Positions 5,035 through 32,445 of a stretch of 64,000 nt of DNA are shown in pieces. How positions within the stretch are numbered: the stretch's first letter is position 1; each line of letters starts with the position of its first letter. A program made the position numbers and the translations under genes. The DNA is taken from positions 1 to 64,000 of the forward strand of contig NZ_JAJUWU010000019.1 in assembly GCF_021390325.1 (NCBI RefSeq). Direction: 5' to 3'. A model generated the notes under the pieces. That model was not told the DNA's origin. It worked only from the letters and a program-made list of their open reading frames with translations, and made no database searches. Source of the DNA: Jiella avicenniae. GTDB lineage: Bacteria > Pseudomonadota > Alphaproteobacteria > Rhizobiales > Rhizobiaceae.

Positions 5035-6171
5035 ATGGATTTTTCGCTCACCGAGGAGCAGGAGCAGATCTTCCAGATGGCGCGGGACTTCGCCGCCGAG
5101 AAGATGGCGCCCCACGCGGCCACGTGGGAAGAGGAGAAGCGCCTGCCGCGCGAGGTGCTGAACGAACTGGCGGCGCTCGGCATGGCGGCGATCAACGTTC
5201 GCGACGACCACGGCTCGGGCCTGTCGCGTCTCGACACGGTGCTGATCTTCGAGGCGCTGTCCTATGGCGACCCGTCGGTCTCGGCGTTCCTGTCGATCCA
5301 CAACATGGTCGCCTGGATGGTCGACGGTTTCGGGTCCGACGGGCAGCGGGCCGAATGGCTGCCGAAGCTTGCTTCGATGCAGGCTGTCGCCAGCTACTGC
5401 CTGACCGAGCCCGGCGCGGGCTCGGACGCGGCCGCCCTTCGCACCAGCGCGAGACGAGATGGCGACGGCTACGTCCTCAACGGCACCAAGAGCTTCATCT
5501 CGGGTGCCGGCTTTTCCGATCTCTATCTCGTCATGGCGCGAACGGGCGAGGCCGGACCGAAGGGCATTTCCGCCTTTCTTGTCGAAAAGGGGACTCCCGG
5601 CCTCTCCTTCGGCGCACAGGAGAAGAAGATGGGCTGGATCGCCCAGCCGACTGCGGAGGTGCGGCTCGAGGACTGCCGGATCGCGGGCGGGAACCGCCTC
5701 GGCGAGGAGGGCAGCGGCTTCGTCTATGCCATGATGGGGCTCGACGGCGGCCGCTTGAGCATCTCCGCCTGCGCTCTCGGCGCGGCTCAGGCGGCGCTCG
5801 ACAAGTCGGTCGCCTTCATGCGGGACCGGCAGGCCTTCGGAAAGTCGCTGACCGAGTTCCAGGCGCTGCAGTTCCGCCTCGCCGACATGGAGACCGAGCT
5901 GTCCGCCGCCCGGATCTTCCTGCGCCAGGCCGCCTGGAAGCTCGACCGGAAGGCGCCGGACGCGACGAAGTTCTGCGCCATGGCCAAGCGCTTCGTCACC
6001 GACGCGAGCTTTTCGGTCGCCAACATGGCCTTGCAGCTGCACGGCGGATACGGCTACCTCTCGGACTACGGCATCGAAAAGATCGTCCGCGATCTCCGGG
6101 TGCATCAGATTCTCGAGGGCACCAACGAGATCATGCGGACGATCGTGGCGAAGGCGCTTCTGGCGAAATGA
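5035..6171 (+). CDS. acyl-CoA dehydrogenase (isobutyryl-CoA dehydrogenase-like)
   Basis: A 378-aa flavoprotein that oxidises acyl-CoA to enoyl-CoA, passing electrons to ETF. The ATG at 5035 has GGGAGG nine bases upstream; the much longer open frame reaching back over recQ is spurious. Family marks: YCLTEPGAGSDAAALRT (121-137), the FAD-binding ISGAG region, DRQAFGK (264-270), QLHGGYGYL (334-342) and the catalytic Glu in LEGTNEIMR (E361). The glutamate position and the overall sequence fit short/branched-chain members such as isobutyryl-CoA dehydrogenase (valine breakdown). It is not next to other valine genes, so the exact substrate remains an inference. Confidence 0.93.
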   Translation: MDFSLTEEQEQIFQMARDFAAEKMAPHAATWEEEKRLPREVLNELAALGMAAINVRDDHGSGLSRLDTVLIFEALSYGDPSVSAFLSIHNMVAWMVDGFGSDGQRAEWLPKLASMQAVASYCLTEPGAGSDAAALRTSARRDGDGYVLNGTKSFISGAGFSDLYLVMARTGEAGPKGISAFLVEKGTPGLSFGAQEKKMGWIAQPTAEVRLEDCRIAGGNRLGEEGSGFVYAMMGLDGGRLSISACALGAAQAALDKSVAFMRDRQAFGKSLTEFQALQFRLADMETELSAARIFLRQAAWKLDRKAPDATKFCAMAKRFVTDASFSVANMALQLHGGYGYLSDYGIEKIVRDLRVHQILEGTNEIMRTIVAKALLAK

Positions 6172-6368
6172 GCGTGCCGCGCGCCTGCCGTTTCCGCCGA
6201 GCGAACGGCCGGACGTTTCGAAACGACGAGGACGAGCGATAAATTTCGCCCCGGTGGCGATTCTGCAATAGTTTTGCCACATGCTGGCGCAATTCGTAAC
6301 GCTTCGCGACGCAGCGGCCGCAAGGGGAATGGGGCTGCTGCGAAAGCCGAGCTTGGGGGTCGTTCGAC

Positions 6369-7805
6369 TTGAAACGCCAATACTGGATCGTTCCGTCGCT
6401 GGCAGCCGTCCTGGGTGGGATCGGCTACGGGGTTGCGCAGAACCTGCCGCCCCGCGATGCGGCCGATCTTCGCTCGTCCGTGCAGACGGCGCCGGCACCC
6501 GTGCCGGCCGCATCGGCGGACGAAGACTTTACGCCGCCGACGCTGTCGGACCGGGTTTCGCTCGGCTATCGCCGCAAGGGCGACGAGAATTTCGCCGAGG
6601 TGAGGGTGTCGACGGTCGAACCTTTCGTCGACGGCGTCGACCGGCGGCTTGTCGCCTCGGTGGCCGACGGCGCGGTTCCGCCGGTCGCCGCCGCCAGTGC
6701 CGCGCTGGCGCCCACGGCGTCCCGCAATCCGGGCTCGAACGGCGCGACGGCCTTTCTGACGAAGGTCGCTGCGGCCGGGGACGCCGCCGCTGCCGCCGAC
6801 ATGAACGCGGCGGAGACGGCCGATGCGATCTCTCCCGCCTTCGAGGCGACACCGCTGTCCAGCCGGCTTCTCGACGCCGACGAGCCGGCCTGGCAATCGC
6901 GCTTCTTCGCCGACAACCCGCTCGTCGGCGGCATTTTCCAGGGGGATGGCAACCGGGCGGACGCCGCGTCCCTGATCGGCGCCGCCAGGACGGCCCGCTA
7001 CGTTCTTCTCGGCGAGACGCACGACAACCCGGATCATCACCGGCTGCAGAGCGACATCGTCGCCGATCTCGCCGACGCGACGGCGGATCTGTCGCTGGTA
7101 TTCGAGATGATCCCGCCGCGGCTCGGCAGCGCCGTTTCGGCCTTCGGCACGCCGCGCGCCGGCGCCATCGACATGGATTCGCTGGCGGACCGGCTCGAAT
7201 GGTCGGCAAGGGGCTGGCCGGATTTCTCCATGTACCGTCCGATGTTCGAAACGGCCAGGCGCGAGGGTCTCGCGGTCTTTCCCGGCAATCTCGACCGGGA
7301 CGTCGTCAGCTCGATCGCCCAGAGCGGCATTTCGGCGCTTTCGCCCGAGATGCGGACGAGACTGTCGCTCGACGCGCCCGCCGATCCCGAGATCGTTGCC
7401 GATCTGACGGAAGAAGTTCGCAGCGCCCATTGCGGCCTGATGCCCGAGGGGGCGCTGGCGACCATGGCGGATGCCCAGCGCGCCCGCGACGGCGCGATGG
7501 CTGCGGCGATGATCGACGCCGCGCAATCGGGCGACAAGGCGGTTCTGATCGCCGGCTCCGGCCATGTCCGCGACGACCGGGGCGTGCCCTCGATCCTGCA
7601 GCGGACCGATCCCGAGGCCGAGACGATCTCCGTGCGGATGCTGGAAGTCGACGGCAAGGACGGCGACCCCGCCGATTACGGGCTCAAGGCCGAGATGCCG
7701 GCGCCCTACGACTTCACCATCTTCACCCCCCGCGCCGATCGCGACGATCCCTGCGAGGCGCTCCGCGCTCGCATGGAGAAAAAGGCGGGTACGGTCGCGA
7801 ACTAG
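6369..7805 (+). CDS. ChaN-like haem/iron-regulated protein
   Basis: A 478-aa protein starting at TTG 6369, with a GGGGG run about ten bases upstream. A hydrophobic N-terminus (IVPSLAAVLGGIGYGVA) looks like a signal anchor. The first 170 residues are Ala/Pro-rich and probably disordered. The remainder is the ChaN/EreA-like fold: LLGETHDNPDHH (213-224), VFEM, HCGLMP, AQRARDGAMA and LIAGSGHVRDDRGVP. ChaN of Campylobacter is a haem-binding lipoprotein in iron uptake, so an envelope haem-binding role is the family-based guess. It lacks a clear lipobox and has no iron-transport neighbours. The long disordered N-terminus is unusual compared with about 280-aa ChaN proteins. Confidence 0.8.
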   Translation: MKRQYWIVPSLAAVLGGIGYGVAQNLPPRDAADLRSSVQTAPAPVPAASADEDFTPPTLSDRVSLGYRRKGDENFAEVRVSTVEPFVDGVDRRLVASVADGAVPPVAAASAALAPTASRNPGSNGATAFLTKVAAAGDAAAAADMNAAETADAISPAFEATPLSSRLLDADEPAWQSRFFADNPLVGGIFQGDGNRADAASLIGAARTARYVLLGETHDNPDHHRLQSDIVADLADATADLSLVFEMIPPRLGSAVSAFGTPRAGAIDMDSLADRLEWSARGWPDFSMYRPMFETARREGLAVFPGNLDRDVVSSIAQSGISALSPEMRTRLSLDAPADPEIVADLTEEVRSAHCGLMPEGALATMADAQRARDGAMAAAMIDAAQSGDKAVLIAGSGHVRDDRGVPSILQRTDPEAETISVRMLEVDGKDGDPADYGLKAEMPAPYDFTIFTPRADRDDPCEALRARMEKKAGTVAN

Positions 7806-8117
7806 GCCATCGAGCCATCGACCGCCCGCCCATCTTCTTACGTGGTTCTCGCGACGGCGAAGAATCGCGGTCGGGACCGGGTTCCTTCGCTGCCTTCGAA
7901 CGCGCCTCACCGCTACCCCGCGACAGAGCCGGCTCTGCGTTTTCGGGCTTCCATCGGTCCGAACCCCAGGGCCGCGCCTCCAAAAGCGCCTCGTTCGGCA
8001 TTCGATTGACCTTGCAGAGCCCGGCAACTAGGGTCCGCGGCGATCCGGACGGCGGCGTTTTCGAGCGCCGACGGTTCCGAATATTCCCGACCTTTGACTG
8101 ATCAAGGAGCCATGCCG
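7806..8117. other. intergenic region upstream of dapD
   Basis: About 310 bases between the ChaN-like gene and dapD. It must carry the dapD promoter, but I cannot pick out a convincing -35/-10 pair. No small gene, repeat or hairpin terminator is evident. Confidence 0.4.
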
Positions 8118-8972
8118 ATGACCGGGCAGGACCGCGCCGCCCTCGAACTGACGATCGAACGCGCCTTCGACGAGCGGGACGAGGTTTCCCCGACGACGAC
8201 CGGCGAGGTGCGCGAGGCCGTCGATGCGGCGCTGGAGCTGCTCGACAGCGGCGAGGCGCGGGTGGCGAGCCGCGAGGCGGACGGTTCCTGGACGGTCCAT
8301 CAGTGGCTGAAGAAGGCGGTGCTCCTGTCCTTCCGGCTCAACGACATGACGGTGATCGAAGGCGGGCCGGGCGGCGCCACCTGGTGGGACAAGGTGCCGT
8401 CGAAATTCGAGGGCTGGGGCGAGAACCGCTTCCGCGAGGCCGGGCTCCGGGCCGTGCCGAACGCCATCGTCCGCCGTTCCGCCCATATCGGCAAGGGCGT
8501 CGTCCTGATGCCGTCCTTCGTCAATCTCGGCGCCCGTGTCGACGAGGGCACGATGGTCGACACCTGGGCGACGGTCGGCTCCTGCGCGCAGATCGGCAAG
8601 AACGTCCACCTTTCCGGCGGCGTCGGCATCGGCGGCGTGCTGGAGCCGATGCAGGCCGGCCCGACGATCATCGAGGACAACTGCTTCATCGGCGCCCGCT
8701 CGGAGGTCGTCGAAGGCTGCATCGTCCGCGAGGGCTCGGTGCTCGGCATGGGCGTCTTCATCGGCCAGTCCACCAAGATCGTCGACCGCACCACCGGCGA
8801 AGTCCGCTACGGCGAAGTGCCGCCCTATTCGGTGGTCGTCGCCGGCACCATGCCCGGCAAGCCGATGGACAACGGCGCGCCGGGACCGAGCCTCTATTGC
8901 GCCGTCATCGTCAAGCGCGTCGACGAGAAGACGCGGTCGAAGACCTCGATCAACGAGTTGCTGCGGAGCTGA
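8118..8972 (+). CDS. dapD: 2,3,4,5-tetrahydropyridine-2,6-dicarboxylate N-succinyltransferase
   Basis: A 284-aa left-handed beta-helix acyltransferase. It succinylates tetrahydrodipicolinate in the succinylase branch of lysine and meso-diaminopimelate synthesis, and supplies peptidoglycan precursors. The hexapeptide-repeat core is visible ([48 protein letters not shown]), followed by the conserved [11 protein letters not shown] and [10 protein letters not shown] segments. The frame is open from a TTG at 8094 and an ATG at 8112. I chose the ATG at 8118 because AAGGAG lies eight bases before it, and the N-terminus then matches the usual family length. dapE lies 2.3 kb further on, separated by a glycosidase and a lytic transglycosylase. 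Confidence 0.96.
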
Positions 8973-9123
8973 TATTGCCGAGATCCTTGTCTCCTGCAGT
9001 CATGGTCGAGCCCGCAAGTCTGCCCAGCATCGTCGTTGGCGTGCCTCTGTCCGTCTTGATGATTTGTGGGCCCGGCTTCGTCAAATCGAAACATCATGTC
9101 GATCAGACGGAACCTGTCGCAGG

Positions 9124-9912
9124 ATGACGGCTCGGCGGTTCAGATCTCCCAAGCTCTGTTCGATTGTCGCTCTTCCCCTCACCGCCGCCGCCGGCCTGCT
9201 CGGCTGGCTAACCTCCGTTCCCGCTCTGCCGAGCGCCCATGCCGGCCTCTGCCGCACCGAGACCGCGGCCGGCGTGGAATACATCGTCTGCGACGTCGCC
9301 CTCGACCGCTACGACCTCGCGCTGCGGGCGGTCGATAAGGAGGGCAGGCCCTACGAGACCTTCGAGGCGGCGAAGGCTTCGTTGCCCGGCCGTGAAGTCG
9401 CGCTGATCGTGAATGCCGGCATGTATCACGAGGATCGCCGGCCGGTCGGGCTGGCGGTACAGGACGGCAGGGAGCTGCACGGCGCGGTTCTCGGCACCGG
9501 CTCGGGCAATTATTCGCTGCGGCCGAACGGCGTCTTCTTCGTCGAGAACGGCCGGGCGGGGGTGATGGAATCGACCCGTTATCTGGACGGCGGGCACGAT
9601 CCCGACCTCGCGACGCAGTCCGGCCCGATGCTCGTCGTCGACGGCAGGCTGCATCCGCGCTTCATCGAGAACTCCGACAGCCGGCACGTGCGCAACGGCG
9701 TCTGCGCGAGCGAGGACGGGCGGGTCGTCACCCTCGTCCTCTCGCGGTCGCCGGTGAATTTCTGGGATTTCGGCACGTTCTTCAAGGACGGGCTCGGCTG
9801 CAGGAACGCGCTGTTCTTCGACGGCACGGTGTCGAGCCTTTATTATCCGTCCGGCGGCATCGACTATCGCCGCGATCGGCTGGGACCGATGCTGGTCGTC
9901 ACCGAGCAGTGA
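9124..9912 (+). CDS. secreted phosphodiester glycosidase-domain protein (DUF2233/NAGPA family)
   Basis: A 262-aa protein starting at ATG 9124 with a clear Sec signal peptide (positive MTARRFRSPK, a hydrophobic stretch, SAHA cleavage near residue 40). The mature part shows the NAGPA-like pattern NAGMYHEDRRPVGL, LRPNGVFF, QSGPMLVV, R-NGV and LFFDGTVSSLY. Mammalian NAGPA removes N-acetylglucosamine from phosphodiesters. Bacterial YigE-type members are periplasmic with poorly defined substrates, possibly cell-envelope phosphodiester glycans. It follows dapD by 150 bases on the same strand but has its own weak ribosome-binding site, so operon membership is uncertain. Confidence 0.85.
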   Translation: MTARRFRSPKLCSIVALPLTAAAGLLGWLTSVPALPSAHAGLCRTETAAGVEYIVCDVALDRYDLALRAVDKEGRPYETFEAAKASLPGREVALIVNAGMYHEDRRPVGLAVQDGRELHGAVLGTGSGNYSLRPNGVFFVENGRAGVMESTRYLDGGHDPDLATQSGPMLVVDGRLHPRFIENSDSRHVRNGVCASEDGRVVTLVLSRSPVNFWDFGTFFKDGLGCRNALFFDGTVSSLYYPSGGIDYRRDRLGPMLVVTEQ

Positions 9913-10060
9913 CCGGCCATTGCCGGGACCGCGGCTCGCGATTCCGCCAACCTGTGAGCTGGTTCGAAAAGCATGACCGGCCGACAGCCTGGACGGCGGG
10001 TCTCCGTTCTCGACCGCCAACCGACGCGGCCTTTCGCGCGTCACCCGGTGGAAGGTTCGA

Positions 10061-19022: not shown

Positions 19023-19459
19023 GGACAGCGCAGACGCTTCGAAGCCGGCCGGATAGCGCGATCGCTCGGCGACGAAGTCGAGCCCCTCGGCTCGGTCGAA
19101 CCGATGGCGCGCCCGCAGCCGTCCCGGGGCGACACGCCGCGTGCTCACAAAGTTGTTATCGGATCGTTCGACGCCCGATGATCTGGCACGGTGGGCGCAC
19201 CGTCTGAAAAGGGTCGCTGGCAGCATGGGCTGCTTCGGAGGTGGCGGATGCCGACCAAGGACAGGCTGTGCGGCAGGGCCCGACGGGTGCCAGCCAATGG
19301 CCGACCGGCGTCCCATCAACGCTGCGTGATCCGCTGTACTTTCCGCTGCGTCAGGGGTAAGTGGCGGCAGAAACCTTAAAAAAAGATTTACGCCAGGGCG
19401 GATCGAAAACGCTCGGGCTGCATTGTAGACTGCAGCATTCGGACACGCAGGGGGATCAC
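19023..19459. other. intergenic region before protease gene
   Basis: About 440 bases between rmuC and the trypsin-like protease. It has an A-rich run at about 19378-19390 and ends in a CAGGGGGATC ribosome-binding region. I see no credible gene, tRNA or known riboswitch; a promoter for the protease presumably lies in the last 100 bases. Confidence 0.4.
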
Positions 19460-21046
19460 ATGCGTCGCGGACTGGGGGTCATCATGGCAGCTTGCTTGCT
19501 GGCGGTTTCGCCGGCGGCTGCGCGTGACCTTTCGAGCGGCATCACCCCTATCACGTCTTCGTCGGCCGAACTGTCACTCGCCTACAACACGCAGACGGAC
19601 CTTTCATTCCGGCGCGGATTGCAGATCCGCCTCGCCTGGACGGGCGACTATGCCGGACCGTTCTCCGGTATGATCGCCGCGCCGACCCTGCGCGCCATCC
19701 GCGATTTTCAGGCCCGGCACGGCATGAAGGCCGATGGCGTGATCAGCGAAGCCATGCTGCAGAAGCTGATCGCGATGTCCGACGGTATCCAGTCCGATCT
19801 CGGCGTCGCGATGGTCGACGACGGCGCGACCGGTGCGCGCCTCGCGCTGCCGCTGAAGCTGGTGAGCGATCGCGGTCGGACCGAGGTGGGCAATCTTTGG
19901 CGTGCCGAGGGCAACGGTATCGAGGTCGAGACCGTTCGCATCGCCGAAACCGGCCAGACGCTCGGTGGGCTGTACGCCACCTTGAGCGAGCCCACCGCGC
20001 AGCGCTCGGTCAGCGACGCCCAGAAGGCGGAAGACTGGTTCACCGTCGCCGGCACCGAATCGGGGCGGCGCTACTTCATGCGGTTCTCCGGCTCGGGCTC
20101 CGACCTGCGGGGCTTTTCGATCTCTTACGCGGATGCGGAGGTCGACGCAGCGGAGATCGGCTCCTTCATCACCGTCGCCTCCAATCTGTTCGAGCCTTTC
20201 GCCGGCGAGCCGAATGCTCCGCTGGTCGCCGAAAATGGTGCCAATCCGTTTTCCGCGATGCTGGCGCGACGCCGCTCGACCTCCGACGGCGAGTCGGCCC
20301 GCTACGCGATGGCCGAACGTGGCGACGGCAATGCCCGCTCGCATCTCTTCGAGCTGCCGCGCAGCCGGCGCGGCGGAAGCGGTGCGATGGAGCCGGCACA
20401 AGGGGTGGCCCCCCAGCCGGGCAGCCCCGCTTTCGACATGGCCGGATCGGGCTTCGTCGTCGCCGACGGCTGGCTGCTGACCAATGCCCATGTCGTTCGC
20501 GGCTGCCGCAAGGTCGAGGTCGGCGAAAACGTTTCGACATCGGATATCCGTATCGACGACGGAAACGACCTGGCGCTGGTCCACGTGGATTCGAGCCTCG
20601 GAAAGCCGCTGGCGATTTCTGCCTCCAAGCCCCGGCTCGGCGAGGACGTCCTCGCGCTCGGCTTTCCGCTCCGTTCGATTCTCGCCGATTCGCTCAACGT
20701 CACCCGTGGCAACGTCTCTTCGCTGCTCGGCCTGATGAACGACCCGCGTTACCTGCAGATCTCGGCGCCGGTGCAGCCGGGCAATTCCGGCGGTCCGCTG
20801 GTCGACCTCGCCGGCCGGGTGGTGGGTGTCGTGACCGCAAAGCTCGATGCGGTCGCCGTTGCCGACGCGACCGGGGACATCCCCCAGTCGATCAACTTCG
20901 CCATCCGCCCGGACACGGTCGCAGCGTTCCTGCACAAGAACGAGATCGAGTTCCGCACCGCCGATGCGAAGGCTTCCCTCGAAAGCGTCCCGGACGCCAC
21001 CGCGAGGGTGAAGGATGCGGTCTATCCGGTGGTCTGCACCGACTGA
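19460..21046 (+). CDS. secreted PG-binding-like/trypsin-like serine protease
   Basis: A 528-aa exported protein. The signal peptide MRRGLGVIMAACLLAVSPAAA is followed by a peptidoglycan-binding-1-like segment (about 45-105: FRRGLQIRLAWTGDYAGPFSG, TLRAIRDFQARHGMKADGVI), a unique central region, and a C-terminal HtrA/trypsin-fold protease (about 325-500). The catalytic triad is visible as H344 (LLTNAHVV), D370 (DGNDLALVHV) and S443 (VQPGNSGGPLVD). No PDZ domain follows, unlike DegP. The ATG at 19460 is preceded by AGGGGG. The likely location is periplasmic, perhaps wall-associated; the substrate is unknown. Confidence 0.88.
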   Translation: MRRGLGVIMAACLLAVSPAAARDLSSGITPITSSSAELSLAYNTQTDLSFRRGLQIRLAWTGDYAGPFSGMIAAPTLRAIRDFQARHGMKADGVISEAMLQKLIAMSDGIQSDLGVAMVDDGATGARLALPLKLVSDRGRTEVGNLWRAEGNGIEVETVRIAETGQTLGGLYATLSEPTAQRSVSDAQKAEDWFTVAGTESGRRYFMRFSGSGSDLRGFSISYADAEVDAAEIGSFITVASNLFEPFAGEPNAPLVAENGANPFSAMLARRRSTSDGESARYAMAERGDGNARSHLFELPRSRRGGSGAMEPAQGVAPQPGSPAFDMAGSGFVVADGWLLTNAHVVRGCRKVEVGENVSTSDIRIDDGNDLALVHVDSSLGKPLAISASKPRLGEDVLALGFPLRSILADSLNVTRGNVSSLLGLMNDPRYLQISAPVQPGNSGGPLVDLAGRVVGVVTAKLDAVAVADATGDIPQSINFAIRPDTVAAFLHKNEIEFRTADAKASLESVPDATARVKDAVYPVVCTD

Positions 21047-23537: not shown

Positions 23538-24020
23538 TCATGCCGTCGCGAGCAGGACCAGATAGCTCGCGACGACGACGAGCATGGCGCGGAAGGCGAA
23601 GGCGACGAGCCGGTACTTCGCCTTGCAGATCGCCGCGAGCGTCGCGGTATTCTGCAGATAGTCTTCATAGAGGAAATCGGTGTCCCCGCGTTGCCGGGCA
23701 TCCTCGAGCGTCCGGCTGGCGTCGGGCCATGCACCCCAGAAGAGGATGCTCGTGCCCGGCCGCGAGCGCGGCAGAACCACGCAGATGGCACAGACCAGTG
23801 CGAAGCCGACGGCCAGCATCAGCACCAGACTGGCCACGACGTTGACGATCCCCGCGGAGGCGAGATGCTCCAGCGAGAACGATCGCCGGGTCTCGGCCGA
23901 CCAGACGACCAGCGCCAGGATGAAAGTGAAGATGTAGGCCGCCTTCTGGTCGGCCGTTCTGATCTGATCGGCGAAGATGCGGTTGGCTTCGACGAGATGG
24001 GTGAGATGCCGCTCGGACAT
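23538..24020 (-). CDS. Pycsar-effector-like (DUF5706/PycTM-like) membrane protein
   Basis: A 160-aa protein starting at ATG 24020, with GGAG seven bases upstream. Layout: a short amphipathic N-terminus ending in ADQKAAYIFTF, TM1 (about 27-42), TM2 (about 57-82), a cytoplasmic-looking loop with SILFWGAWPD and DTDFLYEDYLQNTATLAAICKAKYRL (about 91-137), and TM3 (about 137-158). The AD-x-KA helix, the FWG motif after TM2 and the AxxKYRL run before TM3 match my recollection of the Pycsar effector TM domain family (DUF5706). In that family, effectors are activated by cyclic CMP or UMP and disrupt the inner membrane during phage infection. No PycC-type cyclase is directly adjacent, but a class III cyclase gene starts 3.8 kb away. 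Solitary homologues also occur, so a defence role is unproven. Confidence 0.62.
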   Translation of the reverse strand: MSERHLTHLVEANRIFADQIRTADQKAAYIFTFILALVVWSAETRRSFSLEHLASAGIVNVVASLVLMLAVGFALVCAICVVLPRSRPGTSILFWGAWPDASRTLEDARQRGDTDFLYEDYLQNTATLAAICKAKYRLVAFAFRAMLVVVASYLVLLATA

Positions 24021-24164
24021 CGTATGCTCCAGCCTGTGTGGTTCGGAGGAAGGGCCTCGGCGCGGGCGCGATCCGATCGATGCCCGTGCCCCCGGGTCTG
24101 TGGCGGTGCCGACACGGCACCGGGGATTCGACTTGACCCAGCGTCTCAACCGCAGATCCGTCGA

Positions 24165-24170
24165 TTGACA
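24165..24170 (+). promoter_or_regulatory. possible -35 element for FecR-barrel/cyclase operon
   Basis: A perfect TTGACA lies 55 bases upstream of the chosen ATG, in the 205-bp divergent region shared with the PycTM-like gene. The matching -10 (around GATTGAT, 17-18 bases on) is poor, so this is a weak candidate. Confidence 0.3.
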
Positions 24171-24225
24171 GTCGCGTTGCGGCAAATGATTGATGCCCTA
24201 TCGTCATATTCGAAGCCCTCCGTCA

Positions 24226-27200
24226 ATGCGCCAGACGCTTTGCCATCTCACGATTTCCATCTGCTGCGGCCTTTCGACGACGTCGGCCCTCGCTGAGCCG
24301 ATTCCGCGCTCCGCCCCGGCCGCGGGCGCGGTGATCGCGGCCAAGCTCGGCGAGGAGATCGAATTCGTCGAGGCGCCGAGCTGGCGCGGCGTCGAGGTAT
24401 TGCAGGAGGTCAAGACCGGCGACGTCCTGAGGACGAATGCGACGGGCCAGCTCGCCATCCTGTTCTCCGACCAGACCCAGGTGCGCGTCGGTCGCAACTC
24501 GACACTCCTCGTCAAGGAGCGGATCCCCGGCGGCGATACGCGACTGGTGCTTCAGAGCGGCCAGATCTTCGGTCGCGCGGCTCGCGGCGGATCGGGCGTC
24601 TTCGTCGAAACGGCCGCCGCGACGGCGGCCATCCGCGGGACGGACTGGTCGATGCAGGCCGACGGTTCCCGCACGACGCTGACGGTCCTCGACGGCGAGG
24701 TCGAGTTCTCCAACCCGCAGGGTTCGGTGACGGTCCGCCAGGGGGAAGGGGCCGCCGCGACGCTCGGTCAGGCACCGGCAAAGATCGTCATTGTCGCCGA
24801 CGACGTTCACGAGCAGATGCTGGTCAACCTGTCGATCCGGGCGGCGTTCGAGTCTTTTCCCGCCACCTCGCTGCCCAATCGTGCGCTCCTCGGCGAGCGC
24901 GCCCGCCTTTCCCAGCTCCCGCTCGCCTCCCGCGGCGCCGAGGACCGGGTGCTGGCGGCCGAGATCGCCGCCGACCGGGACGGCCGGCAGGCGGCGGAGG
25001 CCGCGATCGGCGAGGCGAGAACCCTCTCGCTGACGCCCGGACAAGCGGCCCGGCTGGATCTGCTCGAAGCCAACATCGCCGCGGGAAGGCAGAACTACCG
25101 GCGTGCCGTCAGCCTCTACGAGGGCGCGCTTCCGCATCTTTCCGGCGAGCAGAAGACCACCGCCACCTATTTCCTCTACTTCGCTCGCTCGCTGGCCGAT
25201 CCGCAGCATGCACCGACCCCTCCGCGGCCGGATCCGAACGACCGCATCTCCGTCGTCGGCGAGGCCTTCGTCGCCGCGATGCTGGACACGCCGCGCGCGG
25301 CGCTGAAGATTTTGAAGGACGCCGAGCCGCGGTTTCGGGACGACCCGCAATATCAGGCGGTGCTTTCCCAGGTCGCGGTGCTTTCCAGCGACTACGAGAC
25401 GGCGCGGCGGGCCGCCGACCGGGCCTATCAGCTCGACCCGAACGATCCCGATGCGCTGTCGGCCCGCGCCTATTACCGGGCGAACGGCATATCCGACGTC
25501 AAAGGCGCGATCGCCGACCTCGAAAAGGCGCTGGCGGTCGCTCCCGGCGATACGGAACTCCTCAACGACTATGCCCTTGCGCTGTCCGACCGAGGCGCCG
25601 ACAAGGAAGCGGAGGCCGCTCTCCTGCGCGCCATCGCGATCGATCCGGAAGAGCCGGTCACCCGGGCCAATCTCGCCATGCTCTACATCTCCCAGGGCCG
25701 AGTCGCCGAAGCCCGGCAGATGACCGACGAGATCTTCAAAGCGGATCCATCCTTCACCCTCGCTCATCTGACCCGCGGTCAGCAGCAGATGCTGGAAGGA
25801 AAGGAAGCCGAGGCGCTCGACAGCCTGCTCAAGGCCTCGACGGCCAATCCGGCCTATTCGGACGGACTGCTCGCGCTCGGCGAAGCCTATGCGGCGACGG
25901 GCGACATCGAACACGCCAAACAGGCCTTCGACGACGCCGATCGGCTCGATCCGAACAGCTCGCTGGCGGCGCAGTATCTGTCGGCGCTGGCGATCGATCA
26001 GTACCAGGCCGACGCCGGCGTCGAATATGCCCGGGAGGCGGTGAAACGCATCCGGGCCAAGGGCGGCGACTATGAATCGATCCATGCGACCCGCGATTCC
26101 GGCTCGGTGCTGTCTGCCGCCTACGGGTTTCTGTCGCTCGATGCGTGGGGCGCCTATTGGAGTGACGTCGTCTTCGATCCGTTCGAGGCGGCCGGATACT
26201 TCGATCGGGCGCTGCAGGGCAGTGCCGCACCCTTCTATCTCAGCCGCGACGACGAGATCGTCGGGCCTGATCCGGTCGTCGACGGGCGCGGTCTCTCGCT
26301 CCTGACGAAGGGCATTCTGGGAGATGCCCTGAGCCTTGCCGGCTCGAACCTCCGCCCGTCCTTCGTGACGACGCCCTTCAGCGAAGTCTCGCTGACCGGC
26401 GGGTTTCTCAACGCGGGCGGCGAGTTCGGCGGCAGCTTCGGCGCCTCGTTCCAGTCGCTCGGCTACGACCCGCTGCCCTATTCGATGCTCATCCAGGCGA
26501 GTGGCGAGACCGTCTCGCCGGACTATGCCAGTCAGGAAGAGGAGAACTATCAGGTCATCGGCGGCTTCGGCCTGCAGGTCACCCCCTACGACCGGCTGGC
26601 CGGGTTCGTCACGGTGAACCGCTCGACGGGCGGGCTGAGCGTGGAGTCTATCCCCTTCACGCGCTTCGACAACACGCGCGATGACTCTTTCACGGGTGTC
26701 CTCGGTCTGTCCCACACCTTCGGCTACGAGAACGTCCTCAACGTCGCCGTCTTCGGATCGCAGAACGATGGCACGCAGGAGAGCGTGCCGCTGGAGTTCC
26801 TCATCAGCGACGTCTTCGGCGCCTACTCCGCCAAGGCGAGACAGGATAGTTTCAAGGCGAGCGCCTCGCACATCGTCGGATTCGAGCCGCTGACCATCGA
26901 GTACGGCGGCGAGTATGGGAGCCTGCGTTCAAGGGCCGACAGCGAACTCTACGCCGTCTATCCCAATGGACCGGTCCAGGTCGCGCAGAACGACTCGGAC
27001 AGCCGCTCGAGCTTTGGCCGCGCCTGGATCGACGCGACCTTCGAGGCGACCGAGGAACTGCGCTTCGAGGCCGGACTGTTCGGCACGACAACCGAAGGCG
27101 AGGGCGCCGACGACGACCTCCTGGCGCCGCGCTTCGGTGCCGCCTTCATGCCGGTCGACGGCCAATGGCTGCGGGCGGCCTTCATGCGAGAGCGGCCGGA

Positions 27201-27819
27201 GGAGGACGCCTACACGCTGGCGCCCATCGGAGTCCTCGGCCTCAGATCCAGCTCGGTCGCCGCCGACGTCGACCACGTCGATACCACCATCGTCCGTCTC
27301 GACAGCGAATGGTCCCGCCGGTTCTTCACCTCGCTGGATTATCAGCATCAGGACTTCGACGCCCTCAGCTACGCGATCCCCGGCTACATCGACGGCGTCG
27401 GCGTCGACGACGCCAGGCTCGATCGTCTCGCTTTGACCGCCAATCTCTGGCTCGGCGGCGGCCTCGGCGCCTCGGCGACGGTGGCGCGCTCATGGTCGAA
27501 GGGGACGATCGACGAGGAGACGGGCGATTTGCCCTATGTTCCTAACTGGAGCGGACAGTTCGCCCTGACCTACGTCGATCCGAGCCGGGTGAAGGTGACC
27601 GCGCGGGAAACCTATCTCGGCAGCCGCGGCTCCCATCTGGATGGTTACCGCCTCGAAGACGCCTTCGTCACCGACGTGTTCGGAAGCTGGGAAAGCGAGG
27701 ATCGGCACCTCGCGGTCGATGCCGGCGTCTACAACCTCTTCGACGACACCGTCGAGGTCGCGCCGCTGGTCCCGACGGCGCAGCGGACCATCCGCGTGAG
27801 CATGCAGGCGCGGTTCTAG
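24226..27819 (+). CDS. FecR-TPR-outer-membrane beta-barrel fusion protein
   Basis: A 1197-aa exported protein; a TTG at 24190 is an alternative start. The signal peptide ends near SALA (residue 23). A FecR domain follows (about 50-190: VKTGDVLRTNATGQLAILFSD, ETAAATAAIRGTDW, LDGEVEFSNPQGSV), then tetratricopeptide repeats (about 380-580: AADRAYQLDPNDPDAL, LEKALAVAPGDTELLNDYALAL, LLRAIAIDPEEPVTRANLAMLY). From about residue 700 to the end, alternating amphipathic strands rich in Gly, Tyr and Phe end in a terminal Phe, as in outer-membrane barrels or TonB-dependent receptors. The barrel would sit in the outer membrane with FecR and TPR parts in the periplasm. The stop codon abuts the cyclase ATG, so the two are coexpressed. 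Whether the barrel transports anything is unknown; no plug domain or TonB box is apparent. Confidence 0.82.
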   Translation: MRQTLCHLTISICCGLSTTSALAEPIPRSAPAAGAVIAAKLGEEIEFVEAPSWRGVEVLQEVKTGDVLRTNATGQLAILFSDQTQVRVGRNSTLLVKERIPGGDTRLVLQSGQIFGRAARGGSGVFVETAAATAAIRGTDWSMQADGSRTTLTVLDGEVEFSNPQGSVTVRQGEGAAATLGQAPAKIVIVADDVHEQMLVNLSIRAAFESFPATSLPNRALLGERARLSQLPLASRGAEDRVLAAEIAADRDGRQAAEAAIGEARTLSLTPGQAARLDLLEANIAAGRQNYRRAVSLYEGALPHLSGEQKTTATYFLYFARSLADPQHAPTPPRPDPNDRISVVGEAFVAAMLDTPRAALKILKDAEPRFRDDPQYQAVLSQVAVLSSDYETARRAADRAYQLDPNDPDALSARAYYRANGISDVKGAIADLEKALAVAPGDTELLNDYALALSDRGADKEAEAALLRAIAIDPEEPVTRANLAMLYISQGRVAEARQMTDEIFKADPSFTLAHLTRGQQQMLEGKEAEALDSLLKASTANPAYSDGLLALGEAYAATGDIEHAKQAFDDADRLDPNSSLAAQYLSALAIDQYQADAGVEYAREAVKRIRAKGGDYESIHATRDSGSVLSAAYGFLSLDAWGAYWSDVVFDPFEAAGYFDRALQGSAAPFYLSRDDEIVGPDPVVDGRGLSLLTKGILGDALSLAGSNLRPSFVTTPFSEVSLTGGFLNAGGEFGGSFGASFQSLGYDPLPYSMLIQASGETVSPDYASQEEENYQVIGGFGLQVTPYDRLAGFVTVNRSTGGLSVESIPFTRFDNTRDDSFTGVLGLSHTFGYENVLNVAVFGSQNDGTQESVPLEFLISDVFGAYSAKARQDSFKASASHIVGFEPLTIEYGGEYGSLRSRADSELYAVYPNGPVQVAQNDSDSRSSFGRAWIDATFEATEELRFEAGLFGTTTEGEGADDDLLAPRFGAAFMPVDGQWLRAAFMRERPEEDAYTLAPIGVLGLRSSSVAADVDHVDTTIVRLDSEWSRRFFTSLDYQHQDFDALSYAIPGYIDGVGVDDARLDRLALTANLWLGGGLGASATVARSWSKGTIDEETGDLPYVPNWSGQFALTYVDPSRVKVTARETYLGSRGSHLDGYRLEDAFVTDVFGSWESEDRHLAVDAGVYNLFDDTVEVAPLVPTAQRTIRVSMQARF

Positions 27820-29814
27820 ATGGAGCGAGCGAAGCGACGTCGCCTGGCCGAGACGGCGCTCTGCGTCGCCGCGGCGATCATGCTCGGTCTCGCCTTGTCG
27901 ACGTGGCAGCCGTTTCGGCTGGCCGAAGCGCGTGTCTTCGATTTTCTCGCAACCCTGTCTCCGCCTCCGATGCAGTCCCTGGCGGAAGCCGACGGCGGCA
28001 TCGTCGTGGTGGCGATCGACGAACCCTCCTTTGCCGAGATCGGCCTGCAATGGCCCTGGCCGCGCACTCTCCACGCCGAACTGGTGGCGGCGCTGAGGAA
28101 GGCCGGGGTGAAGGCGATCGGCCTCGATCTCGTCTTCGCCGAACCGTCCAGCCCGGTTGCGGACCAGGCCCTCGCTGCGGCCCTCGGACCAGACGTGGTG
28201 CTCGCGGCCGACGAGAGCCTCATCGAGACGCCGCATATGAGCCAGCTGATCCGGACCGAACCGCTGCCGGAATTCATCGAGGCGGGTGCGCGGGTCGGGC
28301 TCGCCTCGGTCACGCTCGACGCCGACAACGTGCTGCGACGGATGCCGACGGCGCCGGACATCTTCGCCGCCGAGCTTCTCGAGGCGGCCGGCGGCGGAGA
28401 TCGCGGCGAGAAACCGGAAGAGGCTGCGGCCGGCCGGCTGATCGCGCCGATGGGTCCGGCCAGGACATATCCGACCGTATCCTACTATCAGGCGCTCGAT
28501 CCGGAAAACTTCCTTCCGCCGGGTTATCTCAAAGGCAAGATCGCCGTCGTCGGCCGCAGCCTGCAGATGGCGATCCCTGCGGAGACCGGGGGCGCAGACA
28601 GTTTCGCCACCGCCTTCACCGCGTCGACGGGCCTGCTGGTGCCGGGCGTCGAGATCCAGGCGACGATCGCCGACAATCTGCGCCACGCCCTGTCGTCGCG
28701 ATGGGCGGGCCTGCCGCTGCTCGGTCTTGCGGTCGCCGCCGCAGCGCTCCTCGCCGGCGTCGCCGCCTTCCGGCCGGCGGGCCTGTGGACGCTCGGCGCG
28801 GGCCTCGGGCTCGTGGCGCTGATCCTTGCAGTCAGTGCCGTATCGTTCTTTTTCCTCCGGATGTTCCTGCCGCCGATCGCGCCGTCGCTCGCCGTCACCG
28901 CGGTGCTGGTGCCGCTCGCCGCCCGCGACATCACCCAGGAGCGGGCGATGCGGCGCGAAGTGACCAGAGCCTTCGGCCATTATCTCGCGCCGGCTCTCGT
29001 CGAGCGGCTGGCGCGGGACCCGTCGGCCCTGAAATTGGGGGGCGAACGGCGCGAACTGACGATCCTCTTCAGCGACATCCGCAACTTCACCACCTTGGCG
29101 GAATCGATGAAGGACGAGCCGGAACGGCTGACCCAGCTGATCAACCGGCTGCTGACGCCGCTGTCGGCCGCGGTGCTGGAGCGGGGCGGGACGATCGACA
29201 AGTTCATCGGCGACTGCATCATGGCGTTCTGGAACGCGCCGCTCGACGATCCGGACCATGCCGTCCACGCCGTCGAGGCCGGCCTTGCGATGCTGGCAGC
29301 CGTCGACGCCTTGAACGAGGAGCTTCGCGCCGAACTCGGCGAGACGGCGCCGAAGCTCGCGGTCGGCGTCGGCATCAACACCGGCGCCTGCGTCGTCGGC
29401 AACATGGGCTCGGCGACGCGCTTCGACTATTCGGTGCTGGGCGATGCGGTGAACTACGCCTCCCGCCTCGAAGGGGCGTCGAAGGAATGCCGCGTGCCGC
29501 TGCTGCTCGGTGCCGGGACGGCGGCGAAGATCGGAGGCAGGCTGGGGCCGCTGCTCGTGGCTCGAATTGCAGTGAAGGGTCGCAGCGGTGTTTCGCCGGT
29601 CTATACGGTCGCCTCCATCGAGCCGGTCGAGGAAGCAACGCGCAAACGCTTCGACGCGGCGGTGGAGGGCCTTCTCGTCGGCGCCGAACCGGTGGCCGCC
29701 TCCTTCGAGGTGCCTGCGCTCGAGCACCTCTACGCCACCATCGCGGCGCGCGAGGCGCACAGGCATCCGAGCCCGATCCCCGGCGCGAGCGAGGTGCGGG
29801 CGGAAACCGTCTGA
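27820..29814 (+). CDS. CHASE2-domain class III adenylate/guanylate cyclase
   Basis: A 664-aa membrane enzyme. After an N-terminal TM (about 12-28) comes a periplasmic CHASE2 sensor (about 35-290: VVVAIDEPSFAEIGLQWPWPR, GLDLVFAEPS, GYLKGKIAVVG, PGVEIQATIADNL), three TM segments (about 297-368) and the catalytic domain (about 405-560). Metal-binding D419 (LFSDIRNFT) and D465 (FIGDCIMAFW), adenine-selecting K461 and D536 (FDYSVLGDAVNYASRLE), and transition-state N545 and R549 are all present, so the enzyme looks active and ATP-specific. Its ATG directly follows the stop of the FecR-barrel gene. FecR/CHASE2-cyclase pairs are a recurring arrangement. A cyclic-nucleotide-binding antiporter is encoded convergently just downstream. 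Confidence 0.93.
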   Translation: MERAKRRRLAETALCVAAAIMLGLALSTWQPFRLAEARVFDFLATLSPPPMQSLAEADGGIVVVAIDEPSFAEIGLQWPWPRTLHAELVAALRKAGVKAIGLDLVFAEPSSPVADQALAAALGPDVVLAADESLIETPHMSQLIRTEPLPEFIEAGARVGLASVTLDADNVLRRMPTAPDIFAAELLEAAGGGDRGEKPEEAAAGRLIAPMGPARTYPTVSYYQALDPENFLPPGYLKGKIAVVGRSLQMAIPAETGGADSFATAFTASTGLLVPGVEIQATIADNLRHALSSRWAGLPLLGLAVAAAALLAGVAAFRPAGLWTLGAGLGLVALILAVSAVSFFFLRMFLPPIAPSLAVTAVLVPLAARDITQERAMRREVTRAFGHYLAPALVERLARDPSALKLGGERRELTILFSDIRNFTTLAESMKDEPERLTQLINRLLTPLSAAVLERGGTIDKFIGDCIMAFWNAPLDDPDHAVHAVEAGLAMLAAVDALNEELRAELGETAPKLAVGVGINTGACVVGNMGSATRFDYSVLGDAVNYASRLEGASKECRVPLLLGAGTAAKIGGRLGPLLVARIAVKGRSGVSPVYTVASIEPVEEATRKRFDAAVEGLLVGAEPVAASFEVPALEHLYATIAAREAHRHPSPIPGASEVRAETV

Positions 29815-29937
29815 ACGACCCGCCGTCCGGTGGTCGACTTGCGCGACCGGCCACACCTTGGCGCGTCGCGCATTCCGAAGTCCGCCGCGCCGGACGGCGT
29901 CATCGCGACGTAAACGCGAAAATCTGCGTCGGCCGCC

Positions 29938-32445
29938 TCAGACCGTCTCTCTGCCGACGGAGGCGACCTCGGGGCCGGTCATCTGGTTCTCGTCCATCCG
30001 CGCCCGGGCGACCGCCTCGATCTTGGCCCGCAGATCCGGGTGGCGGGCGAGGAACTGGGCGAAATCCTGGGCCGAAAGACGCAAGAGCGACGAATAGGCG
30101 ATGGCCCGGACGTCCGCCTGCCGGCGGATGTCGAAGATCAGCGCCAGTTCGCCGAAGATGTCGCCGCTGCCGAGCCGCACCTTCACCGCTCCGCGTTCGA
30201 CTTCCACCGCGCCCGAAGCGATGAAATAGGCGGCGTCGCCGATCTGGCCGGTCCTGATCAGGGGCATGCCCGGCGGCGCGAAATGCGGCCTCAGATGCCG
30301 GGCCAGCTCGGCCTTGTTGCGATCGTCGAGATCGGCGAAGAGGTCGCAGCGGGCGATGAGGCTCGTGGTGTCGAGCCCGAGGTCGAGCTCGGGGCGCACC
30401 GTTTCGGCCGCTCGCCGTCGGTCGAGCCCTTTCAGGACGTGGCTTTCGACCTCGGCGTTGATGACGCCCGAGCTGCGCAGCCGCTCGATCTCGCTTGCCT
30501 TGAAGGCATGGATCGAGCGGGCGATGATCGTTCGCTCCAGCCTGGCGACATAGGCGGGATATTGCAGCCGGATCGCCGCGATCTCCCGCTCGACGATGCT
30601 CTGGCGATCCTTCAGCGCGGCGATCGCCTCGTCGGTGGGGTGCGCGCCGAGCACCGGCCGCAACTCGGCTTCGGCGAAGGGGATCAGCCGGTCGATGACG
30701 AGAGAAATCTCCGCCAGCCGCTCGAACCGGTCGGCGAGGCGCTTCGACAGGAGACGGCTGGAGCCGAGCCTGCGCTGCAGGAAGAGGCTGAGCCGGTCGA
30801 GCCGGTCAAAACCGACCTCGGCCCTGTTGGCCTGCGCATAGCCGGCTCTGCCGTCGGCGCGGATCAGGTCGAGCCGCCGCCGCGCCTCCGCCGCCAGTTC
30901 GCGGGCGATCGCCGGGGAAATCTTGCCCTCGGTGAAATGGGCGAGCACGATCTCCCGCTGGCGGTTCGACAGGGTGATCAGCGCCAGTCGCAGCTTTTCC
31001 TCCTCGACGAGGTTCGACGTCGAGGTGACCGGGTCGACTGCGAGTTCCAGGCCGTCGTCGATGCCTTCCTTCTGCGCTGCCGTGCGGAAGCGGCGCGCCA
31101 TCGAATGGGCGAGCCTCTGGACCTTCTCGGACGTCGCCGACAGGGCGAGATCGCGGATCGCCCGATCGACGCGGGAGAGGACGTCGAGCCGCAGCCGTTG
31201 GATGAGCGGTCGTAGGGTGGTGCCCTGAACGAACAGCGTCATCAGCGTGTAGCCCGTCGCGATCGTCGCGACGAAGGCTGCGACCGGCCGCGGGATCGCC
31301 GGGTTCTCGGTCACCGCGAGGGCGAGAGCGAGCGTCATCGAGCCGCGCAGACCGCCCCAGATCATCACCACCGCATAAGAGCGCGAGACACCGTCATAGA
31401 GCCCGAACCGCGCGAGCAGCGGGAAGCAACCGAAGATCACGACGGCGCGTGCCACCAGCGTCGCGACGAAGACGACGAGGAGCAGCAAGAGGTCGTAGGG
31501 CGTCGCATCGGCGACGAGGCGCGGCACCAGGAGCGACGTCATCACGAAGATGAGGATCGCCGAGCAGGAGGCGAGCTGTTCCCAGGTGTCGTTGAGGTGC
31601 CGCCAGGTGCCGCCGGCGATCCGCCCGGGGGCAAAGGTCGCCAGCGTCACGCCCGCCGAGACGACGGCGATGACACCGGAGACCTCGAAGGCTTCCTCGG
31701 CCAGCCAGTAGGCGAGATAGGGCACGGCGAGGCTGAGCGAGACGAAGGCGATGCGGTCGTCGGCCAGGGATCGGGACAAGGCCAGAAAGGCCTGCGCCAC
31801 CAGCCAGCCGACGACCGCGCCGCCGAGCGGCAGGAGGACGAGGCTGGCGGCGATGCCGAAAGCCGACAGCGAGCCGGGAGCCGTCAGCGCCATGGTGAAG
31901 ATCAGGAACAGCGAGATCGCCGCCGCGTCGTTGAACAGGCTTTCGCCCTCGACGAGCCTCGTCAGCCGCTCCGGCGCGCCGACTTCGCGGAAGATCGCGA
32001 TGACGGCGACGGGGTCGGTCGTCGCGATCAGCGAGGCGACGAGCAGGCAGGCCAGCAGCGGCATGCCGGCGAGCGGCCAGAGCGCCAGAGCGGCGCCGAA
32101 GGTGGCGACGACGACGGCGCCGAGGGCGAGGATGAGGATCGGGACGAAATCCTCCCGGATCCGATGCATGTCGACGCCGAGGGAGCCCTGAAAAATCAGC
32201 GTCGGCAGGAAGACGTAGAGGAAGAGATGCGAGCCGATCGGGAGATTGAGCACCTGCTCGGAGAATTCTTCCGGAAACAGCGAGCCGGGATTGGCGAGCG
32301 AGTAGAGGCAGAGGCTGCCGAGCGCCAGGCCGCCACCGGCGAGCACGATCGACATCGGCAATCGCAGCCAGCGCGCGACCGGCCGGGCGAGCGATCCGAG
32401 GGCGATGACGATCGCGACGAGCGCGACGATGGTGGTAATCGACAT
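29938..32445 (-). CDS. CPA1-type Na+/H+ antiporter with C-terminal cyclic-nucleotide-binding domain
   Basis: An 835-aa inner-membrane protein. The first 410 residues form a 12-13 helix NhaP-like exchanger with TTDPVAVIAIF and the ion-site motif EGESLFNDA. A long cytoplasmic, partly helical linker (about 415-690) leads to a cyclic-nucleotide-binding domain (about 690-810) whose phosphate-binding cassette is visible as FGELAL (764-769) followed by R775 and A777. This layout resembles sperm NHE (SLC9C1) without the voltage sensor, and predicts an exchanger gated by cAMP or cGMP. The gene converges on the CHASE2 cyclase, with 123 bases between the stops, making the cyclase product the obvious ligand. 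Confidence 0.9.
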   Translation of the reverse strand: MSITTIVALVAIVIALGSLARPVARWLRLPMSIVLAGGGLALGSLCLYSLANPGSLFPEEFSEQVLNLPIGSHLFLYVFLPTLIFQGSLGVDMHRIREDFVPILILALGAVVVATFGAALALWPLAGMPLLACLLVASLIATTDPVAVIAIFREVGAPERLTRLVEGESLFNDAAAISLFLIFTMALTAPGSLSAFGIAASLVLLPLGGAVVGWLVAQAFLALSRSLADDRIAFVSLSLAVPYLAYWLAEEAFEVSGVIAVVSAGVTLATFAPGRIAGGTWRHLNDTWEQLASCSAILIFVMTSLLVPRLVADATPYDLLLLLVVFVATLVARAVVIFGCFPLLARFGLYDGVSRSYAVVMIWGGLRGSMTLALALAVTENPAIPRPVAAFVATIATGYTLMTLFVQGTTLRPLIQRLRLDVLSRVDRAIRDLALSATSEKVQRLAHSMARRFRTAAQKEGIDDGLELAVDPVTSTSNLVEEEKLRLALITLSNRQREIVLAHFTEGKISPAIARELAAEARRRLDLIRADGRAGYAQANRAEVGFDRLDRLSLFLQRRLGSSRLLSKRLADRFERLAEISLVIDRLIPFAEAELRPVLGAHPTDEAIAALKDRQSIVEREIAAIRLQYPAYVARLERTIIARSIHAFKASEIERLRSSGVINAEVESHVLKGLDRRRAAETVRPELDLGLDTTSLIARCDLFADLDDRNKAELARHLRPHFAPPGMPLIRTGQIGDAAYFIASGAVEVERGAVKVRLGSGDIFGELALIFDIRRQADVRAIAYSSLLRLSAQDFAQFLARHPDLRAKIEAVARARMDENQMTGPEVASVGRETV

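Follow-up and report, generated by a model that had tools for sequence, protein, structure and literature searches.

In Sinorhizobium meliloti, the receptor NsrA and the adenylate cyclase CyaK take part in autoregulation of infection. In the accessible parts of the published account, an extracellular cue, uL2, triggers cyclic AMP (cAMP) signaling through this pair (PMC7529298). Nodule signal 1 and purified uL2 from E. coli or Medicago require both NsrA and CyaK, and an NsrA-overproducing reporter responds to crude extracts of E. coli, S. meliloti, and yeast, with CyaK required (PMC7529298, same parts). PycTM proteins have hitherto been known as the cyclic-pyrimidine-activated membrane effectors of Pycsar systems. 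Here, a distinct clade of that family is tied to a receptor-coupled adenylate cyclase. The stretch analyzed (the window) is 64,000 nucleotides of Jiella avicenniae contig NZ_JAJUWU010000019.1, and it carries an island of four genes, encoding a PycTM-family membrane protein, an NsrA-like receptor, a CyaK-like cyclase, and a Na+/H+-type antiporter with a C-terminal cyclic-nucleotide-binding domain (CNBD). At a rough probability of 0.6, the island is an envelope-sensing cAMP module of the NsrA-CyaK kind in which PycTM likely serves as a local effector, with the antiporter as a second one in some lineages. The receptor-cyclase pair and the PycTM family were already known; the link between PycTM and NsrA-CyaK is new.

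The receptor-cyclase pair and its probable messenger

By alignment, the receptor and cyclase of the island form a pair homologous to NsrA and CyaK. In plasmid searches the receptor aligned over its full length with NsrA (41% identity over 1197 aligned positions); identity is 54% to CyaK and 46% to the DUF5706/PycTM protein of S. meliloti. The annotated order on pSymB of S. meliloti ml28 is DUF5706 gene (-), nsrA (+), cyaK (+), and the matches to PycTM and receptor in strain 1021 (rows H19 and H70) are likewise divergent neighbors. We take nsrA to be SMb20775, and by the numbering the PycTM gene would be SMb20774. CyaK is SMb20776 in the accessible literature. Our literature search returned no paper with DUF5706 or SMb20774, and no link between PycTM and NsrA/CyaK was found in the accessible parts of the sources; an earlier remark in the 2018 NsrA paper or the 2021 Pycsar paper is possible. 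The main text of the pSymB minimization paper does not mention nsrA or cyaK.

The receptor has FecR (7e-14) and TPR domains in Pfam and a signal peptide recognized by eye, and its C terminus probably forms an outer-membrane barrel. It ends in Phe, as do 68 of 68 relatives. Its start is most likely the ATG at 24226, judging from the signal-peptide-like N-terminus and from similar starts in relatives. This is the FecR, TPR, and (putative) C-terminal barrel layout of an NsrA-type receptor, and a CHASE2 adenylate cyclase with intact catalytic residues lies directly downstream, its ATG at 27820 abutting the receptor stop codon (27817-27819). The first-pass annotation had described a receptor-cyclase operon; both genes are indeed present and adjacent, and their homology to NsrA and CyaK had been overlooked. 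All four gene types that it named are there, and it had correctly recognized DUF5706 and the cyclic-nucleotide-binding domain without tools, in agreement with Pfam. GC content at third codon positions favors all four frames over the overlapping frames compared, confirming the four-gene island. Two gene starts needed correction: that of PycTM is most likely the ATG at 24020 instead of 24185, and that of the receptor, whose open frame spans 24190-27819, most likely the ATG at 24226.

Lys together with Thr or Ser is the mark of class IIIb adenylate cyclases. The island cyclase has CHASE2 (7e-41) and Guanylate_cyc (3e-20) domains in Pfam, and its closest solved domain by score is 3r5g, from a protein named CyaB. 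Among the named PycTM loci (the best 80 of 146 relatives, from 79 genomes, L143 and L159 sharing a record), 74 of 74 CyaK-type cyclases have both metal-binding Asp residues as well as the Lys, Asn, and Arg; at the second base site, 72 of them carry Ser and two carry Thr. Five control PycC cyclases, found via PF18967 and typed with PADLOC, represent four Pycsar-type loci within the same order; for one of them (L206) the PycC match is weaker than for the rest (3.6e-21), and the L204 cyclase, a long one, misaligns at one metal site. In these controls the second base site is Val (4/5) or Leu (1/5), Lys replaces Arg in 5/5, and the first base site is Ala, Asp (three), or Lys, one of the five thereby sharing the CyaK-type Lys. 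Given the adenylate-type residues and the published role of CyaK, cAMP is the probable product of the cyclase and, on this footing, most probably the messenger of the island. A PycTM protein that reads this cyclase should therefore respond to cAMP. The genome itself has six class III cyclase genes above the Pfam cut-off, at six places, so cAMP could also come from cyclases outside the island.

One of the control loci (L204, G917 region, 5198-9941) is a compound Pycsar locus, in which genes for a PycTM, a PycTIR-type protein, and a pair of PycC-type cyclases occupy less than 5 kb.

Table 1. Features of the four-gene island, in window coordinates.
Feature	Coordinates	Strand	Basis and remarks
PycTM-family (PF18967/DUF5706) membrane protein	23538..24020	-	Pfam, PADLOC, start, alignment, hydropathy; 160 aa
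Divergent intergenic region between PycTM and receptor	24021..24225	.	No Clr-type box enrichment upstream of PycTM genes
NsrA-like receptor	24226..27819	+	Pfam; 41% to NsrA, full length; terminal Phe
FecR domain of receptor	24421..24705	+	Pfam
CyaK-like CHASE2 class III adenylate cyclase	27820..29814	+	Pfam; 54% to CyaK; active-site residues
Guanylate_cyc catalytic domain of cyclase	29053..29496	+	Pfam
CPA1 Na+/H+-type antiporter with C-terminal cyclic-nucleotide-binding domain	29938..32445	-	Pfam, NCBIfam, nearest solved relatives; convergent to cyclase
CNBD of antiporter, phosphate cassette GELALIFDIRRQADV, Glu and Arg kept	30040..30279	-	Pfam; cassette inspection

The window neighbors scanned by Pfam are ordinary genes, including peptide deformylase, gamma-glutamyltranspeptidase, and CoxE/XdhC-like genes. 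Nine other window proteins were scanned with PADLOC and one matched, over its trypsin domain only. That protein (19361-21046) is a trypsin-like peptidase with a peptidoglycan-binding domain, and the RT-Protease_XI model covers the peptidase part only.

The two candidate effectors

The PycTM protein matches PF18967 (3.8e-12, 47 bits against a cut-off of 27.2) in Pfam and the PycTM model (8e-15) in PADLOC. An ATG at the position of 24020 is retained in 9 of 9 genus members aligned, and with this most likely start the protein has 160 residues. Hydropathy gives three hydrophobic segments (residues ~27-43, 58-83, and 139-158) and a charged loop of ~55 residues, with DQKAAY conserved near segment 1 and W95 and W98 in the loop. 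The protein set used (A2) comprised the window and 50 of the 80 named PycTM proteins, L159 being omitted for N-terminal stops and others as near-copies. Invariant in the alignment are D24, Q25, K26, W95, W98, Y121, K135, and R144, which lie near the presumed cytosolic face and are candidates for a binding or gating site. In a tree with long branches, receptor-linked PycTM forms a clade separate from Pycsar PycTM (support 95/98). This clade is the only part of the whole-PF18967 tree used here; the base of that tree is weak, several of its branches are very long, and its L213 row ended at a stop after 32 residues.

The antiporter has Na_H_Exchanger (9e-56) and cNMP_binding (2e-15) domains in Pfam. 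Its nearest solved relatives are NHE7, SOS1, and SLC9C1 for the exchanger and HCN and SthK for the CNBD; no voltage-sensor domain appeared in the Pfam scan. The window copy and all other unsplit antiporters examined have the Glu and Arg of the phosphate cassette, and by its residues the CNBD is predicted to be functional in cyclic-nucleotide binding. The antiporter converges on the cyclase at 7 of 8 Jiella-group trio loci of the named set, in both Chthonobacter genomes, and in five genomes of a different family within the order (f192). None of the Rhizobium, Sinorhizobium, Shinella, or Paracoccus loci in the set of 80 yielded it, nor did the 15.5 kb around nsrA in S. meliloti ml28. Homologues exist in receptor-less genomes (G031, G052, G061, G065). 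The three antiporter-bearing lineages share no same-position neighbor beyond the four genes, and a few families recur elsewhere around them. The receptor tree places all receptors of antiporter-bearing loci on a single side (17 rows, support 99); the four-gene arrangement may thus be an old one in that group. In Jiella pelagia (L091/L072), the antiporter is split into two open frames, with the CNBD end apart from the exchanger.

Conservation and rearrangement of the locus

In a set of 81 genomes (the window and 80 relatives), PycTM occurs in 15 and the receptor in 18, and in 15 of 15 PycTM is the divergent neighbor of receptor and cyclase. Across 18 regions, the flanks are mostly unrelated outside the genus, and three other families recur in 2-3 regions each at differing positions; within Jiella other neighbors are conserved as well. 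Among 317 genomes of the window's family, PycTM was found in 59 and the receptor in 74. Both occur in 56 genomes, PycTM only in 3, receptor only in 18, and neither in 240 (Fisher p 2e-42, uncorrected for kinship). In 49 of the 59 PycTM genomes, PycTM is the divergent neighbor of the receptor, with 196-269 bp between the matches; in G408, G390, and G644 it is directly divergent from the cyclase, and in G419 it lies on a contig apart from that of the operon, possibly through an assembly break. At the 80 named loci, the cyclase is beside PycTM in 74 and the receptor in 68, and the next commonest neighbor family after the trio of PycTM, receptor, and cyclase reaches 18. Over 68 loci, the three trio proteins diverge in a correlated manner (Mantel r 0.89-0.91). 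A class-wide search of 289 genomes gave the window and one weak match only, and a solved-structure profile search gave only two chance-level rows (E up to 1).

The first-pass annotation had tied its island to conservation of the neighborhood in relatives. Many genera retain the trio and three lineages retain the whole four-gene block, and the annotation's picture of one cyclic-nucleotide neighborhood with two candidate cyclic-nucleotide-responsive membrane proteins, PycTM and the antiporter, is borne out by this conserved linkage.

Two side observations concern individual PycTM records. In G563, which had no receptor or cyclase at the thresholds used, the PycTM gene (C13:412-880) consists of two overlapping pieces in different frames, which looks like decay following partner loss. 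The PycTM loci labeled as an Arenimonas metagenome-assembled genome (L118) and as Mycobacterium sp. KBS0706 (L108) look alphaproteobacterial, and the record labels may be wrong.

Gene order and orientation vary, and the partners mostly remain together. At six Shinella loci PycTM and cyclase occur with no receptor between them, and the one genome checked (L122) has its receptor elsewhere. At L130 the receptor lies on the opposite side of the cyclase, directed towards it. In f192, PycTM is co-directional with and 5' of receptor and cyclase in five genomes of one genus, and a sixth genome has PycTM alone. In Ensifer-type genomes without PycTM (L234 and the like), a GntR-type regulator adjoins the receptor; this gene (L234 4105-5259) is 90% identical to that of L172 (4515-5941), which flanks PycTM in S. 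meliloti. The same regulator at both sites points to a loss or gain of PycTM in the space between two conserved genes.

Replacement of PycTM may also have occurred. In G898, a single genome from a sister genus of the f192 genus, a Pycsar-type PycTM precedes NsrA-CyaK (PADLOC 2TM effector 1e-35, PycTM 2e-27). It is much nearer to the defence-type models than to the Jiella type, its grouping with Pycsar PycTM resting on weak support (75/84) together with these scores. None of the three neighboring proteins scanned there matches any PADLOC model, PycC included. The receptors of the two genera form one clade in a quick tree (Shimodaira-Hasegawa-like approximate likelihood ratio test 99), so the PycTM partner was probably exchanged while the receptor stayed.

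Proposed function of the module and known systems

The roles of receptor and cyclase are known for S. meliloti; for Jiella we infer them, as we do the ligand of PycTM, the direction of signaling, and the physiological effect. A FecR-TPR-barrel receptor, presumably in the outer membrane, would sense an extracellular cue, and its periplasmic FecR/TPR part would contact or activate the CHASE2 domain of the inner-membrane cyclase. The activated cyclase would make cAMP at the inner membrane. PycTM would be the inner-membrane partner dedicated to the module, most likely acting locally as a cAMP-responsive effector on membrane permeability or potential. The Jiella group, Chthonobacter, and the third lineage would have a second local effector in the Na+/H+ antiporter with its cyclic-nucleotide-binding domain. 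PycTM is rare without NsrA/CyaK and NsrA/CyaK is more often found without PycTM, which fits an optional downstream output.

Several observations count against this assignment of PycTM and the antiporter as effectors. PycTM is dispensable, being absent from 18 of the 74 receptor genomes, and on a quick tree of 52 chosen receptors (34 beside PycTM, 18 not) its state changes nine times, at least seven of them forced. PycTM lies 45 kb from the operon on the same contig in G465 and on a different contig from it in G421 and G524; G402 and G610 (99% completeness) have an intact PycTM with receptor and cyclase undetected at the thresholds used. At six of the 80 named loci, neither cyclase nor receptor is near PycTM. 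These are Fulvimarina manganoxydans L098, the Inquilinus-like L108, L110, L120, and L154 (two of the four contigs are short), and L159, which has N-terminal stops. The four genomes checked (L098, L108, L110, L159) each have the receptor elsewhere, as two pieces at contig starts for L110 and, for L159, at coordinates matching its other PycTM locus, L143. Only 9 of the 80 loci have the antiporter as a neighbor, and in the Jiella-group exception (L096, J. mangrovi) it is on another contig in G007. The correlated divergence is as co-inheritance predicts, and shared descent gives the same. Pycsar PycTM is reported to respond to cCMP, not cAMP (PMC12489823). Finally, of 79 stretches upstream of PycTM (the window and 78 named loci, some of them lacking the receptor), 8 contain the core Clr box, against 7.6 expected by shuffling; regulation of PycTM by Clr as a general rule was rejected on this count.

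The main rival to the effector role is that PycTM regulates or structurally partners the cyclase, binding CyaK in the inner membrane and tuning or insulating its activity. That PycTM stays with CyaK even at loci that have lost or relocated the receptor (Shinella, L130) speaks for such contact, as does the persistence of NsrA-CyaK where PycTM is missing. Against it, PycTM family members elsewhere adjoin PycC cyclases as effectors, and a Pycsar-type PycTM in the G898 slot is easier to reconcile with a nucleotide sensor than with a specific cyclase contact. We regard a regulator as possible but rather unlikely.

More doubtful is a wider proposal built on the effector role, in which PycTM is a cAMP (purine) sensor, a Pycsar-family effector domesticated as a fast, non-transcriptional output of NsrA-CyaK, and the module may be a bacterial danger sensor. 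A ribosomal protein from lysed neighbors would be read at the outer membrane, and cAMP would reset permeability through PycTM and ion/proton exchange through the antiporter before the threat arrives. The proposal draws on the accessible account of lysates (E. coli, yeast, S. meliloti) signaling via CyaK and of uL2 needing NsrA and CyaK (PMC7529298).

The first-pass annotation had also offered a Pycsar-like, envelope-sensing defence. In such an operon, envelope damage by phage would trigger the cyclase and PycTM would kill the cell. A PycTM/PycTIR-family effector is present by PF18967 and PADLOC, the PADLOC PycC models match the cyclase domain (best 2.3e-27), and a Pycsar-type PycTM occupies the slot in G898. 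However, the PycC matches are partial, and adenylate-cyclase residues stand where Pycsar PycCs carry others, so that by its residues the island has no PycC-type pyrimidine cyclase. The island PycTM belongs to a separate clade, its divergence follows that of the receptor over the 68 loci, no convincing defence gene was found among the nine other window proteins scanned, and S. meliloti NsrA-CyaK has a symbiosis role in the accessible literature. This defence is improbable; membership in Pycsar was rejected on the cyclase residues, and the context gives it no support. A PycTM and class III cyclase pair is not automatically a Pycsar system.

Least probable is that PycTM and the antiporter are syntenic passengers of the NsrA-CyaK operon with no functional link: conservation of other neighbors within Jiella and the separate antiporter contig in G007 would suit it, but outside the genus the flanks mostly differ while the trio stays, partners persist through changes of order and orientation, and co-occurrence (56/3/18/240, uncorrected for relatedness) already disfavors it for PycTM.

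Compared with Pycsar, the island has the PycTM protein family and an adjacent cyclase and membrane protein in common; it differs in its CHASE2 adenylate-type cyclase with an outer-membrane receptor, in the separate PycTM clade, and in the absence of another convincing defence gene among the window proteins scanned. Campylobacterota have CHASE2 cyclase/FecR/TPR/phosphodiesterase clusters (PMC9239204), which in the accessible parts of that paper differ in having FecR and TPR as separate proteins and a phosphodiesterase, and for which PycTM is not mentioned there. Sperm sNHE (SLC9C1) with soluble adenylyl cyclase is alike in placing a CNBD-bearing Na+/H+ exchanger beside a class III cyclase, and the nearest solved relatives of the exchanger part include SLC9C1. 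An SLC9C1-like gated exchanger combines exchanger, voltage sensor, and CNBD, whereas the island antiporter has exchanger and CNBD only, with no voltage-sensor domain in Pfam, and the genes are separate bacterial ones.

The closest system is NsrA-CyaK, in which a FecR/TPR/outer-membrane receptor is likewise followed directly by a CHASE2 adenylate cyclase. The accessible S. meliloti literature names NsrA, CyaK, CyaD1/D2, and Clr, without PycTM. The linkage suggests an unrecognized output of the NsrA-CyaK pathway. If PycTM answers to cAMP, NsrA-CyaK would have an output directly at the membrane in addition to the transcription factor Clr, and a family of defence effectors would have a second, signaling life. 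S. meliloti, where the pathway is genetically tractable, also has a DUF5706/PycTM gene divergent upstream of the pair, making the PycTM-NsrA-CyaK link directly testable there.

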